33,867 bases of DNA from assembly GCA_003225295.1 (NCBI GenBank), contig QHYZ01000102.1:1-33867 (forward strand). The letters run 5' to 3'. Positions 11,769 to 33,029 of this stretch are shown here, in pieces (positions within the stretch are counted from its first letter, which is position 1; every line of letters starts with the position of its first letter). The notes under the pieces were generated by a model that was not told the origin of the DNA, made no database searches, and worked only from the letters and a program-made list of their open reading frames with translations. This stretch comes from Acidobacteriota bacterium (GTDB lineage Bacteria; Acidobacteriota; Terriglobia; Acidiferrales; UBA7541). The translations under genes were made by a program, and so were the position numbers.

Positions 11769-14153
11769 CTAATCACCGTACGGAACCCAGATGTTTTTCA
11801 CCTGCACGGTGTGGTCGAGGAACCACCGGCCTTCGCCTTGTTTCACGTCGAACCAATCAATGGCGCGGCCTTCGTTGGTGAACACCTGCTTCAGATTGCC
11901 AACCGAAAGAGTTTTCACCGCCGCGGCGCCGGCTTCATCCGTAAAACACCAGATGCTGTCGACGTCATCGTGTTCAGCGAGCGTCTTCATCAGTTCCGCG
12001 GCGCGGCCGGTAACTATGTTTACGACGCCATCCGGCAGATCGCTGGTTTCGAAAACCTGATAGAGATCACCGGCAATCAGAGGGTATTTTTCCGACGGAA
12101 TGGCCACCACCGTGTTGCCCGCTGAAATGGCCGGCATCACCAGAGAAAGAAATCCCAGCAACGGCACATCGGCGGGGCACACCACTCCGACCGTGCCGAT
12201 CGGTTCTTTCATTGCCAGCACGACGTTGCGGAACGGCGGGTTATGCACTGCGCCGTCATACTTATCGGCCCAGGCGGCGTAGGAAAAAATGCGCTCGATG
12301 CCCAGGCTGACTTCGGCTTGCGCTTGTTTTTTCCCCACCACGGCGGACAACCGGCCGGCCATTTCTTCGCGGCGCTGGGAAAGGTTCTCCGCCACGTAAA
12401 AGAGCACTTGCGCGCGATGATGCGCCGTCGCTCTGCCCCAGCCTTCCGCTTTGCGGGCCGCTTCGACGGCGTTGCGAATGTCCTTGCGGTTGCCCAGAGG
12501 CGCTTCTCCGAGCAAACGCCCGTCCGCGCCGTGCACTGCGATGCTGTAACCTGAATCCGGCCGCGTCTGATGGCCGCCGATGTAGAGCTTCACCGTGCGG
12601 TCGATCGGAGGAGCCCCGAGATCGGCGGGCTGCTCCGGCGGTTGATCCATCGCGAGTGGCGTTGTATGCACCAGTGGGGCGTCCTTAAACCAGACGGGCT
12701 CGAGGTATTCGCTAAGCCCCTCCCGCCCGCCCTCACGTCCGTAACCGCTCTCGCGGTAGCCGCCGAAACCGCAGGCGGCGTCGAAAAGATTTGTGCAGTT
12801 GACCCAAACCACGCCGGCCTTGAGCTGCGCCGCAACATGCAATGAAACATTGATGCTCTCGCTCCACACGCTGGCGGCCAGGCCGTAAACTGTATTGTTC
12901 GCGAGCTCCACAGCTTCCCGCGGAGTGCGGAAGCTCATGGCCGCGAGCACCGGGCCGAAAATTTCCTGCTGCGCCACCACCGAAGTCGGATGAACATTCC
13001 AGAGTAACGTCGGCGGGAAATACAGACCCCGCGACGGTACGGGAATGGCAGGCTGCCAGCAGGTCGCTCCTTCCGCGATGCCCTGATCGACCAGCCGCTG
13101 GATGCGTTCGAGCTGCACGCGCGCGACGATGGCTCCAATGTCGATGGCTTTGTCGAGCGGCGGGCCGATTCGCAGGGTGTTCATGCGATCCTGAATCTTG
13201 CCGATCAACTTCTCCGCGACGCTCTCCTGCATCAGCAAGCGCGAACCGGCGCAGCAAACCTGCCCCTGGTTGAACCAGATGCCGTCCACCAGACCTTCCA
13301 CGGCACTGTCCAGATCGGCGTCCTCAAAAATGACGAAAGGAGACTTGCCGCCAAGTTCGAGCGAGAGTTTCTTATGGCTAAGCGCGGTAGCCTTGCGAAT
13401 TGCGCGACCCACTTCTGTCGAGCCGGTGAAGGCAATCTTGTCGACGCCGGGATGCTTCACCAGCGCTTCGCCAGTCGATCCGTCGCCGGTGACGATGTTC
13501 ACGACGCCGGCGGGGAGGCCAGCTTCCTGACAAATCTCGGCAAATGCCAGCGCCGTCAAGGGCGTAAATTCCGCGGGCTTGAGCACCACGGTATTCCCGG
13601 TGGCCAGCGCGGGGGCAATCTTCCACGCCAACATAAGCAAAGGGAAATTCCACGGGATGATTTGACCTACGACGCCGCAAGCCGTGTATCCCGGAAACTC
13701 CTGCTCAAGTAACTGGGCCCAGCCCGCATGATGATAAAAATGCCGCGCGACCAGCGGAATATCGATGTCGCGGCTTTCACGAATCGGCTTGCCGTTGTCC
13801 AGTGTTTCGAGAACCGCGAGCCAGCGCGAATGCTTCTGCACCTGCCGGGCCAGTGCATAGAGATAGCGTGCACGCGCGTGCGGACTGAGGGACTGCCATG
13901 CCGGCAAAGCACCCCGCGCAGCTTTCACCGCGCTATCGACATCCGCTGCCGATCCTTCTGCCACTACCGCGAGTCTTTCACCTGTGGAAGGGTCCGCGGT
14001 GTCGAAATAAGTCCCTGCCGCGGGCGCCTGCCAGGCGCCGTTCATGAAATGTCCAAAGCGCCGGCCGTGACGGTCCAGCCAGGCAAGCGCCTCGCGCGGA
14101 TCCTCGGGCGCGGGGCCGTACTCCATGGTCATGAATTTTTCGACGATGCTCAT
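11769..14153 (-). CDS. ALDH16-type aldehyde dehydrogenase with a second, catalytically incomplete ALDH domain
   Basis: A 794-residue protein with two aldehyde dehydrogenase regions. The first (about 35-500) is complete: [18 protein letters not shown], the general base Glu266 in [12 protein letters not shown], the nucleophile Cys300 in [11 protein letters not shown], and EIFGPVL. The second (about 520-794) starts [11 protein letters not shown] and has the coenzyme-type stretch [17 protein letters not shown] and NIVTG, but ends soon after and has no ELGG or GQxC motif. This length and arrangement fit ALDH16, in which the C-terminal domain is a non-catalytic partner. Unlike vertebrate ALDH16A1, the nucleophile is kept here. 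It lies 35 bp after deoC, so oxidation of the acetaldehyde released by DeoC is the likely role. Confidence 0.88.
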
Positions 14154-18594: not shown

Positions 18595-20868
18595 CTAGCG
18601 CGGCCTGGCAAATAGGGAAGCCGGCAGAGCGAGTGCTTCCTTCAGAACAACCCCGCTCGAACGGCGAACCGCGGCGGCTTGCTGGCCAAGGTGCGCTTCA
18701 TTTTGCGCTCGAACTTCGACGATGGTATTGAGTTGGATGCCGGGCGTAGCGCTCGCCAACTCTTCTGCGCGAAGAAGACAGGCGAAAACGAGACGCTCCG
18801 GCAGGTGTCGCCGATCGAGGAACTGTGCGTAATTGAACCAATCGCTTGCAGCGCTGGTCGGGTCGGAAAGCGAAGCGTCAATGGCCAGGGCCCGCTGATA
18901 CGCCGACGCTGCTGCCACGGCGCTCTCTTGTCTCTCCTCGAAGTCCGCCAGATGAACCAGGGCGAGGCTCTCGAGTGCTTTGGCATTCGCTCTTTCCGCG
19001 AATTGGATTGCGGCGTTGTAGCCCGCTAAGGCCCCGTCCTGCTGATTGCCGGCCGCGTGTGCGTCGGCAACTTTGATGAGCGCGGCGAGCACCGATGCCG
19101 TTTCATTGCGGTGCTCGTCCCGATGAGAAGCCACGATCTGCAAATAGGCTCGATAGTGGCGCGCCGCGGCCTGTACTTCGCCGCGCCGGTCCTGCGCCTC
19201 GGCAAGATAGTGCTGGGCATTCGCTTGACCGGGGTCGATATCGATCGAGCGCTGCCAGCTATCAATGGCCTCATCGCCGTGCCCCAAGCGCTGTGCCAAA
19301 AGCCCATAATTCACCAGCGCAGCGGTGTTACCTGGCCAGTGGCCAAGCATCTCTTGGTATTGCGCATACGCTTCCGCTTCCCGTCCTGCCTCGATCAAGC
19401 CTCGCGCATACGCTTCTCGCAGTGGTAAGCTACCCGGACTGACTGCAGCGGCTCGGCCGAGGGCCGCAAGCGAAGCATCGCGCTTTCCCGCCAGTGTCTC
19501 GGCACGCGCTAGCCGCATCTCCACGGAACTGTCATGGGGATTCAGCTTAGCCGCGCGCTCTAGCGCCGGAACACTGTCCGCCTCGCTCGACCAGTAGAAA
19601 TGCAGCTGATCCATCGCCGCCCAGGCCAGCAGCAGGGCAACAGTAGTGATTCGCAGGCCTCTTGCCGCGGGCGTGAAACCCGTCAGCCAGCGGGCCGCGG
19701 ATGGCCACGCGCCTCTCGCGCGTAACTCCGCACCCGGGGTCTTTTCATTGCTATTGAGCAAGAATGCCGCAACGCGTGAATCGCGCAGTTTCCAGAGTGC
19801 CCCGTCGAGAATGAAGTGATGGATGTTCACCAGCGCTGTGAAGGTCAGGAAGCTGGCGGCGAAATCTCGGTGAAACATGCGGCTCGCGATCCACGGTCCA
19901 GGAATGAACAACGCGATTCCTCCCGCGACCAGGGTCAAAAGGTACCGTGAAAACCTCCAGTGGGCATCCCCTCGCTGGCGCGCTTCGCGTTGCTGATAAT
20001 AACTGGTGATCCAGAGATATTGCGCGGAATGCAGCACGGCCAGAACGCCGCTGCTGTAGCGCGTTTGCGGGACCTCGTGCCCGCTGAAAAGTTGGATCAT
20101 GGCGGGCAACAGGAACCACAGGAACTGCGTGACGGCCAGCGTCAGCGGCGCGAGGATCGCTCCGAAGCGGCCGCGCCGCGCCATGGAAACCAGCGCCCAG
20201 CCACTTGCTCCTACGAACGATAGTGCCAGCACGGTTCGCGCGGGAACGGTGACTCTTGCTGGCAGGTCGAGCGAAAGAATCAGTGCGTCGCCCGAGGGTC
20301 CGGTCTGAAAACTCAGTATCAACAAGAGAAACGATGCCATGAACGACAGATGAATTGCGTTTCTTTCTGCGGGACTCGGCGCGAGGCCCGCACGGCGCGC
20401 GAACATCATCAGCAACCCGAAATTTTGCCCCGTGTAATGCCAGGGGCTCCAGCAGATGTATAGCGTGAAGATCCAGGGAAGCAGCGGATACCAGACGTGG
20501 GCGATGACTCCGGCAAATGCCAGCAACAAAGCGATGTGCACCGTGAAAATGCGGTATTTCTCAAAGTCCGTGCGCGTATGGTAGGCGCGGTAGACGGTGG
20601 CCATAAAGTGCGGGTAATTGCATAGCAGCGCCAAAAAATAAAACGCCACGGTCCACGCTCGGGCATACGTGGTGGTCGCGTAGAAAGCCAGCAAGAGAAG
20701 AGGGGCGGACCAAGCTCCGCAGCCGATCAAAAGATCGGTCCAGGGACGATAAATCCAGGGACTTTGTCGCGCCGAGGATGCCGGTGCGGACGGCGGCGCC
20801 GCGGCTGTGAGTGCTCGTCCCATCTTATGGAAGCGTAGCTCAGGGAAACCATAGTTGTGCGAAGCCAC
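18595..20868 (-). CDS. Polytopic membrane protein with histidine motifs fused to a TPR domain, function unknown
   Basis: A 757-residue protein in two parts. Residues about 45-420 contain some nine or ten hydrophobic segments and several His/aromatic motifs at or near helix ends: NYPHFMATVYR (His87), SPWHYTGQNFG (His144), VLHSAQYLW (His280) and NIHHFILDGALWKLR (His350, His351, Asp355). Residues about 430-740 are tetratricopeptide repeats, with alternating A/L/Y positions and repeats such as AAKLNPHDSSVEMRLARAE and SIDIDPGQANAQHYLAEAQ. The His clusters suggest metal or haem binding in the membrane, but I recognise no characterised family. The start is uncertain: GTG at 20868 or ATG at 20823, neither with a clear ribosome site. 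It lies 44 bp after glpF and before the proline dehydrogenase gene. Confidence 0.75.
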   Translation of the reverse strand: MASHNYGFPELRFHKMGRALTAAAPPSAPASSARQSPWIYRPWTDLLIGCGAWSAPLLLLAFYATTTYARAWTVAFYFLALLCNYPHFMATVYRAYHTRTDFEKYRIFTVHIALLLAFAGVIAHVWYPLLPWIFTLYICWSPWHYTGQNFGLLMMFARRAGLAPSPAERNAIHLSFMASFLLLILSFQTGPSGDALILSLDLPARVTVPARTVLALSFVGASGWALVSMARRGRFGAILAPLTLAVTQFLWFLLPAMIQLFSGHEVPQTRYSSGVLAVLHSAQYLWITSYYQQREARQRGDAHWRFSRYLLTLVAGGIALFIPGPWIASRMFHRDFAASFLTFTALVNIHHFILDGALWKLRDSRVAAFLLNSNEKTPGAELRARGAWPSAARWLTGFTPAARGLRITTVALLLAWAAMDQLHFYWSSEADSVPALERAAKLNPHDSSVEMRLARAETLAGKRDASLAALGRAAAVSPGSLPLREAYARGLIEAGREAEAYAQYQEMLGHWPGNTAALVNYGLLAQRLGHGDEAIDSWQRSIDIDPGQANAQHYLAEAQDRRGEVQAAARHYRAYLQIVASHRDEHRNETASVLAALIKVADAHAAGNQQDGALAGYNAAIQFAERANAKALESLALVHLADFEERQESAVAAASAYQRALAIDASLSDPTSAASDWFNYAQFLDRRHLPERLVFACLLRAEELASATPGIQLNTIVEVRAQNEAHLGQQAAAVRRSSGVVLKEALALPASLFARPR

Positions 20869-29807: not shown

Positions 29808-29915
29808 CGCTCGAGCATCCTATCGCATCCTGTACCCCAACTAAAAACGCTTCCGTCAAACAGCCGGTAGCGATACCATTCTTCGTTTTGCGCCATTCTT
29901 CTGTGGGAGGTGGGT

Positions 29916-32900
29916 GTGACCGTTTTTCGCCGGCTGGTTTGCTCCCCGATCGGTGCTCTGGTTGCTCTCTTCCTGACTACCCTGGCCTTACCTGCCGAAC
30001 AAGCCCAGCGCTCCGCGGTGGCCAACCCGAAAGAACGCTCTGCGGCCGCCCAGCCCGTCGACCATCCTCGGGTCGCAAGTTCCGTCGACTCCAAGACCTA
30101 CGAAGGGATGAAATGGCGCCTCATCGGCCCATTCCGCGGTGGCCGGGCCCTTGCCGTGACGGGAGTCCTGAGCCAGCCGAACACTTACTATTTTGGTGCC
30201 GTGGCCGGCGGCGTTTGGAAAACCACGGACGGCGGCGTTTCCTGGGATGCACTCTTCGACAAGCAGACCACTTCTTCCATCGGCAGCATGGCGGTCTCCA
30301 ACTCCGATCCCAACGTAATCTACGTCGGCACCGGCGAAGCCTGCATTCGCGGCAACATCTCCTTTGGCGATGGCGTCTATCGTTCGAACGACGGCGGCAA
30401 GACTTGGAACAACGTTGGACTGAAAGACACCCGCCACATCGGCAAGGTCATCGTCCATCCCACGAATCCCGACGTCGCCTTGGTCGCCGCTCTCGGCCAT
30501 GCCTACGGCACGAACACGGAACGCGGCATCTTCCGCACTCGTGATGGCGGCAAGACCTGGGAGAAAGTTCTCTACCTCGACGATCGCACCGGCGGCATCG
30601 ACATTGTTTTCGATCCGCAGAATCCCCACGTGCTTTTCGCCGCAATGTGGGAAGGCTACCGCACGCCTTGGATGCTCAACAGTGGCGGTGACAAAGACGG
30701 TCTCTACCGTTCGAACGACGACGGCACAACCTGGAAGCGCGTCGAAGGCAACGGTATGCCCGAGGGCCCGCTCGGCCGCATTGGCGTGGCCGTTTCCGGT
30801 GCCGATGCGAACGTGGTTTACGCGCTTATCGAAGCGAAAAAAGGCGGTCTCTACCGTAGCGATGACGGCGGCACCACTTGGGCCTTGATTAACGACGATC
30901 ATCGTTTCCGTCAGCGTGCCTGGTATTTCACCCACGTTTGGGCTGACCCCAAGGATTCCAACAAGGTCTACATCGCCAACACCGGCCTGTTCCGTTCGAA
31001 CAACGGCGGCAAATCGTTTGAACGCCTCAATGCCCCCCACGGCGATCATCACGGCTTGTGGATCGATCCCAACAATCCCAATCGCATGATCAACGGCAAT
31101 GACGGCGGCGCCACCATCTCCATCGACGGTGGCAAGAACTGGTCCACCCAGGGCAATCAGCCGACGGCGCAGTTCTACCACGTGACCGCCGACAACGATT
31201 TCCCCTACCGCGTGTACGGCACGCAGCAGGACAATTCCTCCGTCGGTATCGCCACCGCCAGCGATCGTGGCTACATCGACCGAGCAGACTGGGACGCCGT
31301 CGGCGGAGGCGAGAGCGGCTACGTTGCCGTTGACCCGCGCGATGCACACATCGTTTACGCCGGCTCCTATTTCGGCAATATCACCAGGCTCGACCGGCAC
31401 ACCAACCAAACGCAAAACATCCAGCAGTGGCCGCTCGATCCCGACGGCTACAACGCTTCCGTGCAGAAGTATCGCTATACCTGGACGATGCCGATCGTAT
31501 TTTCTCCGCATGACCCCAACTTGCTCTACCACTCCTCCCAGTTTCTGTTCCGTTCAAACGATGGCGGCCATTCCTGGCAAACCATCAGCCCGGACCTTAC
31601 CCGCAACGACAAATCGAAGCAGCAGGACTCGGGCGGCCCCATCACGAAAGACCAGGCCAGTATTGAGTTCTATGATTTGATCTTCACCGTCGCGGAATCA
31701 CCGCAACAAAGAGGTGTGATCTGGGTGGGCACCGACGATGGCCTGATCCAACTTACGCGTGACGATGGAAAAACTTGGACCAACGTGACTCCCAAAGGTT
31801 TTCCCGAATGGGCCATGATCAGCCTGATCGAACCATCGTGGTTCGAAGCGGGGACCGCCTACGCCGCCATTGACGCCCACAGGCTCGATGATTTCAAGCC
31901 CTACGTTTTCAAAACCAGCGACTTCGGCAAGACCTGGTCGCCAGTCGCTACCGGACTCCCCGACGGCTCTTACGTTCACGCCGTTCGCGAAGACCCCAAG
32001 CGCAAAGGACTGCTCTATGCCGGCACCGAAACGGGTGCGTGGGTTTCCTTTGATGACGGCGCGCACTGGCAGGCGCTGCAGCTGAATCTGCCGACCACTC
32101 CGGTCCACGACCTCATTATCCACGGCGACGATTTAGTCGTTGCCACGCACGGCCGCGCGTTCTGGGTACTCGATGACATCAGCCCGCTGCGGCAGGCGAA
32201 CGCCTCCATCGCCGCTGAAGACGCGCACTTGTTCACTTCGCGTCCCGCGATTCGCACGCGGATGGGACGCGCGCGCCGCCGCCGCTACGCGGTCGGAGAA
32301 AATCCTCCCGAGGGTGCGGCGCTCTACTATTATTTGAAGGAAGAGCCCAAAGAGCACATCAAGCTGGAAGTGCTGGACGGGCAAGGAAAAGTCATCCGCG
32401 CATTCTCCAGCGAAGAAAAGAAAAAAGAAGGCGGCTCCGACGAGTGGGAGAGGGACGAAGCCGAGGAACACATTCCCGCGAAAGCCGGCTTGAATGAATT
32501 CACCTGGGACATGCGCTACGAGCCGCCCAAGAAAATTCCCGCCGCCATCTACGACGAAGGCGCACCCAGCGGTCCGCTCGTTCTTCCCGGGAACTATCAG
32601 GTGCGGCTGACCGTCGGAGCAGCCATTCTGGCGATCCGCGATCTCCGCGGGCAGTTGCAAGCGCTCGAAAAGCGTCTCGATCCGAGCGACGCAGCGAAGC
32701 CCGTTGTCGCCGCGGCCGTTGATCTTCGCAAGAAGATCAGCGCCATCGAGGAAGAACTCATCCAGGTGAATTCCAAAGCCAGCGAAGACGAACTCAACTA
32801 CCCGACGAAGCTCAACAGCAAACTCGGCTATTTGCAGAATGCGGTCGATAGCGCGGACTCGCCGCCGACGGAAGGCGAACTCGGGGTTTACGCCGAACTC

Positions 32901-33029
32901 GACCTGCAACTCGAATCGCAGCTTGCGAAGTGGCGCGACGTTTTGTCGAAAGACGTCCCCGCGCTCAACGACACCATGCAGAAAAACAATGTGCCGCTCA
33001 TCGCTCCATCCGCGGCCAAGGCTGACTAA
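29916..33029 (+). CDS. Large secreted Asp-box (BNR/sortilin-like) beta-propeller protein
   Basis: A 1037-residue exported protein. I use the GTG at 29916, with GGAGG five bases upstream; the signal peptide is about LVCSPIGALVALFLTTLALP. From about residue 60 to 770 there are some eleven Asp-box motifs (S/T-x-D-x-G-x-T-W), such as KTTDGGVSWDAL, SNDGGKTWNNV, TRDGGKTWEKV, SDDGGTTWALI, SNDGGHSWQTI and KTSDFGKTWSPV, forming a sortilin/Vps10-like propeller. After it come a beta-sandwich tail with a charged EEKKKEGGSDEWERDEAEEH stretch and a helical C-terminus. Such proteins are often named glycosyl hydrolase but no glycosidase active site is visible. Between VRLTV and AILAIRDLR (DNA about 32613-32620) the usual linker seems missing. 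The function is unknown. Confidence 0.88.
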   Translation: MTVFRRLVCSPIGALVALFLTTLALPAEQAQRSAVANPKERSAAAQPVDHPRVASSVDSKTYEGMKWRLIGPFRGGRALAVTGVLSQPNTYYFGAVAGGVWKTTDGGVSWDALFDKQTTSSIGSMAVSNSDPNVIYVGTGEACIRGNISFGDGVYRSNDGGKTWNNVGLKDTRHIGKVIVHPTNPDVALVAALGHAYGTNTERGIFRTRDGGKTWEKVLYLDDRTGGIDIVFDPQNPHVLFAAMWEGYRTPWMLNSGGDKDGLYRSNDDGTTWKRVEGNGMPEGPLGRIGVAVSGADANVVYALIEAKKGGLYRSDDGGTTWALINDDHRFRQRAWYFTHVWADPKDSNKVYIANTGLFRSNNGGKSFERLNAPHGDHHGLWIDPNNPNRMINGNDGGATISIDGGKNWSTQGNQPTAQFYHVTADNDFPYRVYGTQQDNSSVGIATASDRGYIDRADWDAVGGGESGYVAVDPRDAHIVYAGSYFGNITRLDRHTNQTQNIQQWPLDPDGYNASVQKYRYTWTMPIVFSPHDPNLLYHSSQFLFRSNDGGHSWQTISPDLTRNDKSKQQDSGGPITKDQASIEFYDLIFTVAESPQQRGVIWVGTDDGLIQLTRDDGKTWTNVTPKGFPEWAMISLIEPSWFEAGTAYAAIDAHRLDDFKPYVFKTSDFGKTWSPVATGLPDGSYVHAVREDPKRKGLLYAGTETGAWVSFDDGAHWQALQLNLPTTPVHDLIIHGDDLVVATHGRAFWVLDDISPLRQANASIAAEDAHLFTSRPAIRTRMGRARRRRYAVGENPPEGAALYYYLKEEPKEHIKLEVLDGQGKVIRAFSSEEKKKEGGSDEWERDEAEEHIPAKAGLNEFTWDMRYEPPKKIPAAIYDEGAPSGPLVLPGNYQVRLTVGAAILAIRDLRGQLQALEKRLDPSDAAKPVVAAAVDLRKKISAIEEELIQVNSKASEDELNYPTKLNSKLGYLQNAVDSADSPPTEGELGVYAELDLQLESQLAKWRDVLSKDVPALNDTMQKNNVPLIAPSAAKAD
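30222..32070 (+). repeat. Asp-box coding repeats
   Basis: Diverged in-gene repeats encoding the Asp boxes. At the DNA level the closest are around 30381, 30708 and 30991, all starting CGTTCGAAC and running into a GACGG- or CGGCGG-rich stretch. They reflect duplication of propeller blades and explain the long antisense open frame on the other strand. Confidence 0.7.

Follow-up and report, generated by a model that had tools for sequence, protein, structure and literature searches.

What a membrane protein with histidine-containing motifs in its N-terminal half and TPRs in its C-terminal half might do is the question raised by one minus-strand gene of the window, by which we mean the whole stretch of 33,867 nucleotides that was analyzed. 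The ORF runs from 18595 to 20868 (757 codons), and the four His/aromatic motifs listed for it by a first-pass annotation, NYPHF, PWHYTGQN, HSAQYLW and NIHHFILDGALWK, were each found in it as given. An in-frame ATG at 20823 (residue 16) is probably the true start, because the first possible start of a 95% identical homologue (L002) lies there, which gives a probable gene of 18595..20823 (-); the ORF itself extends to a GTG at 20868, and its numbering is used for residues below. The source genome is an 8.1 Mb assembly in 385 contigs, and those of its near relatives whose records carry names are bins of Acidobacteria, including Candidatus Acidiferrum typicum.

Upstream of the gene on the same strand are a GlpF-like MIP channel and GlpK, and downstream, also on the same strand, is a proline dehydrogenase-like gene, which confirms the position between glpF and proline dehydrogenase that had been reported for it. 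With neighbour clusters named from the window (GlpK, 5; GlpF, 8 or 20; the gene itself, 0; proline dehydrogenase, 3), the complete order GlpK-GlpF-gene-ProDH was present in 4 of the 49 loci obtained by a pattern scan of species genomes (L015, L016, L020 and L041, 76-95% identical), and further loci had portions of it at identities of 64% or above, L035 excepted, where the GlpK and GlpF clusters sit a few genes off. Since this context was seen in close relatives only, it tells little about function; a function based on an operon with glpF and proline dehydrogenase was dropped for the same reason. Amino acid permeases (cluster 7) adjoining several members were regarded as a common family and left unused.

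The membrane domain of the window protein had no match among Pfam or NCBIfam models, in agreement with the earlier remark that no characterized family could be recognized insofar as curated models are concerned; a characterized distant relative, Brp/Blh, can nevertheless be named, as argued below. Because no listed curated model covers the domain above its cut-off, such genes are probably annotated today merely as TPR or hypothetical proteins. Sub-threshold Pfam hits, FIT among them, were seen in one or two of 75 aligned members each (25 of the 36 families listed). A FIT identity was rejected, as it concerned one member only (E 0.0027, below the cut-off). We also set aside the membrane fatty-acid desaturase, hydroxylase and alkane hydroxylase family, which has clustered HX3-4H and HX2-3HH boxes: no model of it matched, and the histidines here stand singly on separate helices, an HH pair excepted.

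The domain belongs to a wide and patchy family, whose members are TPR-fused in Acidobacteriota and unfused in Gammaproteobacteria, Bdellovibrionota and others. A match was found in 13 of 61 genomes, its own included, and 12 of the matches cover most of the domain; within its own genus the count was 12 of 36 genomes, itself and G035 included. The G035 match (L013) comprises 45 residues with 53% identity near the fourth motif, the rest of the 271-residue frame being unlike the family, and is possibly a remnant of the gene. Profile searches, with source genomes counted, identified members in 12 of 297 genomes of the window's phylum, 6 of 274 of the Gammaproteobacteria, 25 of 191 of the phylum of a Bdellovibrio bin and 1 of 148 of the phylum of a Nitrospiria bin, this last being the source itself. 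The gammaproteobacterial search also showed tandem family genes on one contig of G573 (L094 and L096; 528 and 551 residues, with extra segments). Relatives of the window domain were not found in the plasmids searched. The 49 pattern-scan loci (L014-L062) fall into two kinds. Those of the window's type (L014-L049) come from records labelled Acidobacteria, Acidiferrales, Terriglobia, Acidipila, Blastocatellia or Chloracidobacterium, with the exceptions of L018 (Betaproteobacteria) and L042 (Actinomycetota), labels that were taken as given. The Chloracidobacterium bins among them are L045 and L049, and the gene is also present in three two-contig genomes of the phylum. The remainder (L050-L062) are unfused proteins, 367-462 residues long, from records of Gammaproteobacteria, Proteobacteria, Zetaproteobacteria, Nitrospiria/Nitrospirota, Bdellovibrionales/Bdellovibrio, Eremiobacterota and Parcubacteria.

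Conservation was judged from an alignment of 75 members (A4), 36 rows of which are of the window's type. Seven residues were fully invariant in it (H87, H144, Q148, G151, H280, H351 and W359), and H350, D355, Q283 and Y284 were nearly so, Tyr occupying position 284 in all but one of the 74 other rows. The earlier proposal had named five histidines. Four of them were retained in 75 of 75 rows, namely His87 of NYPHF (codon 20608..20610, -), His144 of PWHYTGQN (20437..20439, -), His280 of LHSAQYLW (20029..20031, -) and His351, the second His of NIHHF (19816..19818, -). The fifth, His350, the first His of NIHHF (19819..19821, -), is Thr in L074 and Ala in L095, so that the proposed check of His conservation was passed with four histidines in place of five. 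As the pattern scan itself selected for NYPHFMA or LHS[AT]QYLW, the rows were split by the way in which they had been found: the four histidines were kept in all 33 profile-found rows, which were hence not motif-selected, and in all 41 pattern-found rows. In eight left-out ORFs, such motifs as are present retain the histidines aligned to H87, H144, H280 and H351. Loci of the search of 61 genomes are represented in A4 solely by the window and by those pattern-scan contigs that match them. Outside A4 were near-duplicate, truncated or frameshifted pattern-scan loci (L020, L033, L036, L039, L040, L041, L046 and L047), duplicates (L063, L080, L090, L101 and L131) and fragments or split or insertion-bearing ORFs (L013, L072, L073, L075-L077, L094, L096-L100, L107, L118, L120-L122 and L127-L130).

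An AlphaFold2 model of residues 16-396 built on A4 had a mean pLDDT of 90.2 and a pTM of 0.87, with 283 of 381 residues at a pLDDT of at least 90. Counted by eye from DSSP elements, the predicted domain has ten membrane helices, where nine or ten had been expected; it spans ORF residues 42-358 (19795..20745, -), which are residues 27-343 in model numbering. When A4 was scanned simply for hydropathy, nine segments were picked up, helix 8 going undetected. The four invariant histidines are on helices 2, 4, 8 and 10 of the model, lying 18, 17, 12 and 15 residues past the start of the respective helix. Since these offsets are alike on helices of the same direction, the model places the four at similar depth, with helices 2, 4, 8 and 10 parallel if all cross the membrane, and they may converge in space. 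When the domain model was searched with Foldseek against the PDB and a viral library, there was no match at E <= 0.001. The best VIA-align rows were microbial rhodopsins (Z 7.4, 176-186 residues, rmsd 5.1-5.2), which may reflect a mere common arrangement of helical bundles. A PDB sequence search with the domain alone gave an alcohol oxidase at E 1.6, and one with a 17-row family profile had no match up to E 10.

The His domain is separated from the TPRs by an eleventh hydrophobic segment (19594..19671, -), whose Asp420 is invariant in all 27 aligned TPR-fused proteins, the set taken into the alignment through the TPR region. That region (18598..19593, -) is real, as had been claimed: Pfam TPR_14 (PF13428) scored 26.0 against a cut-off of 23.5. 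Loops were rich in Lys/Arg after even helices and poor in them after odd helices, both in the window protein and in the A4 average. As these charges put the N-terminus inside and an eleventh segment follows, the N-terminus and the ends of the even helices would be inside, and the TPR region outside, the cytoplasm. CcmH/CycH-type TPR proteins (PF23914) likewise have a TPR region after a membrane part; the window TPRs, however, score 26.1 with that model, below its curated cut-off of 42, and the membrane part of the window protein is instead the ten-helix His domain.

The order of the motifs pointed to the Brp/Blh proteins (TIGR03753, PF15461), which are beta-carotene 15,15'-dioxygenases. One unfused member (L050) matched the Blh model TIGR03753 at E 1.4e-5, the lowest value for any NCBIfam model over the 75 members. 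This was rejected as proof of Blh identity, given that TIGR03753 also yields 6e-5 and 1.2e-4 for SdhC-like proteins, and the comparison was instead made profile against profile, with shuffles and control families. SdhC-like proteins, assigned by eye, with sub-threshold TIGR03753 matches near 1e-4 were seen at L088 and L089. The Blh set comprised 22 sequences, 7 from Gammaproteobacteria, 14 from the Bdellovibrio phylum and 1 plasmid gene that adjoins a bacteriorhodopsin-like gene; L147, a Blh match under the cut-off in the Bdellovibrio phylum, was left out. Exactly four histidines are invariant in these 22 sequences, a fifth (H140) being present at 90% or more. In two Bdellovibrio-phylum loci (L145 and L146) the Blh domain is fused behind an FAD-binding domain that by eye is lycopene cyclase-like. 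Blh relatives were not found in the viral contigs searched.

When the 75-row alignment was compared with the 22-row alignment by hhalign, P was 0.0019 over 239 columns in local mode and 4.6e-5 over 290 columns in global mode, and the printed global alignment had all four His pairs in register. When the Blh columns were shuffled within windows, 2 of 300 trials in local mode and 1 of 300 in global mode scored at least as high as the real alignment. With the alignment reversed, the scores were 14.5 and 4.6, compared with the observed 30.5 (local) and about 26.7-26.8 (global). Blh ranked above all 25 control polytopic families from the same loci, the best of which scored 20.1 local and 6.2 global, although 20 of the 25 were single sequences, which handicaps their scores; single Blh sequences averaged 16.5 in local mode with a maximum of 24.2, and a 14-member control scored 17.3. 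Five divergent members (L071, L074, L095, L116 and L123) scored 34.2 local and 31.9 global against Blh, where the best control gave 19.2 and 10.0 and none of 120 shuffles reached the score.

Subsets gave a more mixed picture. Smaller alignments against Blh had P values of 0.046, 0.028 and 0.0032, and when the TPR-fused rows were taken by themselves against all Blh, the local P was 0.021 and two His were in register over the 155 columns aligned, a full-length global alignment of these two sets not being obtained. In global mode, 6 of 20 subset pairs aligned at full length and the other 14 gave short, uninformative alignments, the pairs not being independent in that one Blh set contains the others; among the six, at least three His were in register in five and a single pair in one. 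Three out-of-register His pairings, one global and two local, occurred across the subset tests.

The likeness extends to the arrangement of the histidines. Blh has four invariant ones in the same order (22 of 22, against 75 of 75 in the window family), and in a predicted Blh model they are likewise on helices 2, 4, 8 and 10, as counted by eye, at offsets of 18, 14, 12 and 19. That model contains an implausible 54-residue helix and has lower confidence across much of its last third, so the helix numbering there is soft. His1 and His2 are 57 residues apart in the window family and 56 in Blh, His3 and His4 are 71 and 66 apart, and the local contexts are alike (PH, WHY-WHF, HS and HH-PH); the His2-His3 interval is 30 residues longer in the window protein than in the Blh protein L081. 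A review (PMC9227343) reports that in one Blh the replacement by Ala of His21, His78, His188 or His192 left less than 5% of activity. By their spacing, His21 and His78 would correspond to motifs 1 and 2, and His188/His192 to the HxxxH of motif 3, of which the window family retains the His of motifs 1 and 2 and the first of motif 3, together with that of the fourth motif, which is invariant in both families. There are differences too. At the +4 position of motif 3 the window family has Tyr284, whereas Blh has His in 15 of 22 sequences (7 of 22 being without it); Gly56 and Asp59 are invariant in Blh and not shared by the window family, and conversely Gln148 and Trp359 are invariant in the latter and not shared by Blh. 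The C-terminal eleventh helix and TPRs of the window protein are likewise unlike Blh. The hydropathy scan found 9 segments in the window family and 8 in Blh, versus the ten expected, and the loop after His2 is negatively charged in Blh and positively charged in the window family.

On the strength of these profile comparisons, we consider it likely that the window domain is homologous to Blh, in support of the oxygenase-like reading given to it earlier. The best-surviving alternative, which we nevertheless regard as improbable, is that the resemblance is convergent and that the protein is an unrelated enzyme, such as a hydrolase or a metal-dependent lipid enzyme, that happens to have single histidines on alternate helices. 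This would accord with the moderate pairwise statistics of the smaller alignments, the mixed subset tests and the single FIT match below the cut-off. It would also be consistent with neither predicted model having a clear structural match: Foldseek found nothing for the Blh model at E <= 0.001, its best VIA-align row was 92 residues of a taste receptor (Z 6.2; rhodopsins Z <= 4.4), and the best rows thus differ between the two models. A PDB sequence search with a 7-row Blh profile gave a single chance match at E 0.7, and no solved relative of Blh or of the window family was found by sequence search. Convergence is harder to reconcile with the full-set alignment, which pairs all four histidines at a score that controls and shuffles rarely or never reach.

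A second alternative, to which we give somewhat less credence, is a haem- or quinone-binding redox protein, in which histidines on different helices would ligate one or two b-type haems, the domain would carry electrons, and a redox partner would dock on the external TPRs. Four invariant histidines at similar depth in a ten-helix bundle, surrounded by aromatic residues, are what such a protein might present; the TPR region weakly resembles the CcmH/CycH TPR model, and just upstream of L038 is a gene whose product has, by eye, CXXCH motifs for haem binding. However, the window domain matched no haem-protein model, the TPR_CcmH_CycH score was, as noted, under its cut-off, no second cytochrome-like gene was seen among the neighbours examined (25, and those of 19 loci), and the register with Blh would not be expected.

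By curated criteria the window family lies outside Blh proper, a placement based on sub-cut-off scores, the Tyr at +4 and the absence of rhodopsin and CrtI at their cut-offs from all 61 genomes. TIGR03753 (cut-off 95.25 bits) matched 1 of the 75 members, far below its cut-off, and not the window protein; PF15461 (cut-off 28 bits) matched neither the window domain nor anything in its genome and was absent among the 25 of 36 Pfam families listed for the 75 members. Neither rhodopsin (PF01036) nor CrtI (TIGR02734) reached its cut-off in any of the 61 genomes, the source included, with the qualification that rhodopsin and carotenoid genes in a genome are a context criterion for Blh and not a strictly defining one. 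Sub-cut-off CrtI-like FAD enzymes were present in all 61 genomes, the best in the window's genome scoring 151 bits against 238.1, so that a carotenoid pathway may still exist. The production of retinal from beta-carotene for a rhodopsin is unlikely on the rhodopsin and CrtI counts, and that these acidobacteria have a bona fide carotenoid-cleaving enzyme yielding an apocarotenal, for which the likely homology to Blh speaks, is very improbable in view of those counts for CrtI and rhodopsin and of the neighbours examined (25, and those of 19 loci), among which no carotenoid gene was recognized. An FAD-dependent, amine oxidase-like protein (by eye) adjoins L074.

The reading that we favor, by a slight balance of probability, is that the N-terminal domain is a distant Brp/Blh relative with a four-His site, likely for iron, and an external TPR region. 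Of the initial interpretation, the conserved multi-His, oxygenase-like core was supported, while the count of five histidines and the lack of a nameable relative were revised. In the mechanism we propose, H87, H144, H280 and H351 would form a single buried site shaped by the invariant Gln148, Gly151 and Trp359 and the near-invariant Tyr284; by analogy with Blh, this would most likely be a non-haem iron site. The domain would activate O2 and oxidize a hydrophobic substrate inside the bilayer, O2-dependent oxidation of an apolar substrate being, by the same analogy, the most likely chemistry. In Acidobacteriota the eleventh helix would link the domain to TPRs situated at the outer side of the cytoplasmic membrane, where they would bind a protein partner or target. 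Judged from its sequence, the window protein is probably a metal-dependent membrane enzyme, and the family is a real, unannotated four-His membrane family, itself probably a distant relative of Blh and here equipped with external TPRs.

The neighbours of family genes vary by branch, which suggests several substrates across the family. An arylsulfotransferase-type (ASST) protein adjoins the unfused gammaproteobacterial members L050 (4300-5940), L056 and L057, as one BLAST cluster confirmed by Pfam for L050. Members of the NWPHF type have an adjacent or overlapping cyclophilin-type peptidyl-prolyl isomerase in four of six cases (L093, L113, L115 and L126; confirmed by Pfam for L115 and assigned by eye for the other three), L114 and the split L127 having no adjoining one. 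An HTTM protein (L116:7-2652, Pfam confirmed) lies two genes from a divergent member, and HTTM proteins recognized by eye, which had no Pfam match at 0.001, are near divergent members in L120 and L123. In L071 a TPR protein (1171-2900, Pfam confirmed) is directly upstream of an unfused member, an arrangement that mirrors the fused gene of the window. By their families, several of the partners named so far are extracytoplasmic or protein-handling, as the fused TPR region would be. A divergent member of the Bdellovibrio phylum (L119:3-3719) lies between a radical SAM/DUF3641 (ArsS-like) gene and a methyltransferase gene that by eye resembles ArsM, followed by an MTA phosphorylase-like gene, and possibly performs an extra membrane step in arsenosugar metabolism. 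An ArsR-like regulator lies downstream in L124.

As far as is known, Blh is an unusual dioxygenase in being embedded in the membrane and having four His. The contexts described above, namely the external TPR fusion, the separate TPR protein, the cyclophilins, HTTM (vitamin K carboxylase-like) and the apparent arsenosugar genes, led us to speculate on a broad superfamily of membrane four-His metallo-oxygenases of which Blh would be one specialized branch, acting at the outer face on varied substrates and sometimes on exported polypeptides, an idea that we hold to be doubtful. Should a wide family share these four invariant histidines yet act on other substrates, the fold would look like a general membrane oxygenase scaffold, and many proteins would be open to structure determination, with H87, H144, H280, H351, Q148, Y284 and W359 as the residues that the family singles out. 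A description of the window family was not found in the titles and abstract openings of the open-licence papers that literature searches listed.

Two further ORFs of the window merit mention. An aldehyde dehydrogenase ORF at 11769-14153 (-) has 794 residues, which exceeds the length of the models shown, and these match it in two or three stretches. A protein of 1039 residues with Sortilin/Vps10- and BNR-type repeats is encoded at 29910-33029 (+).
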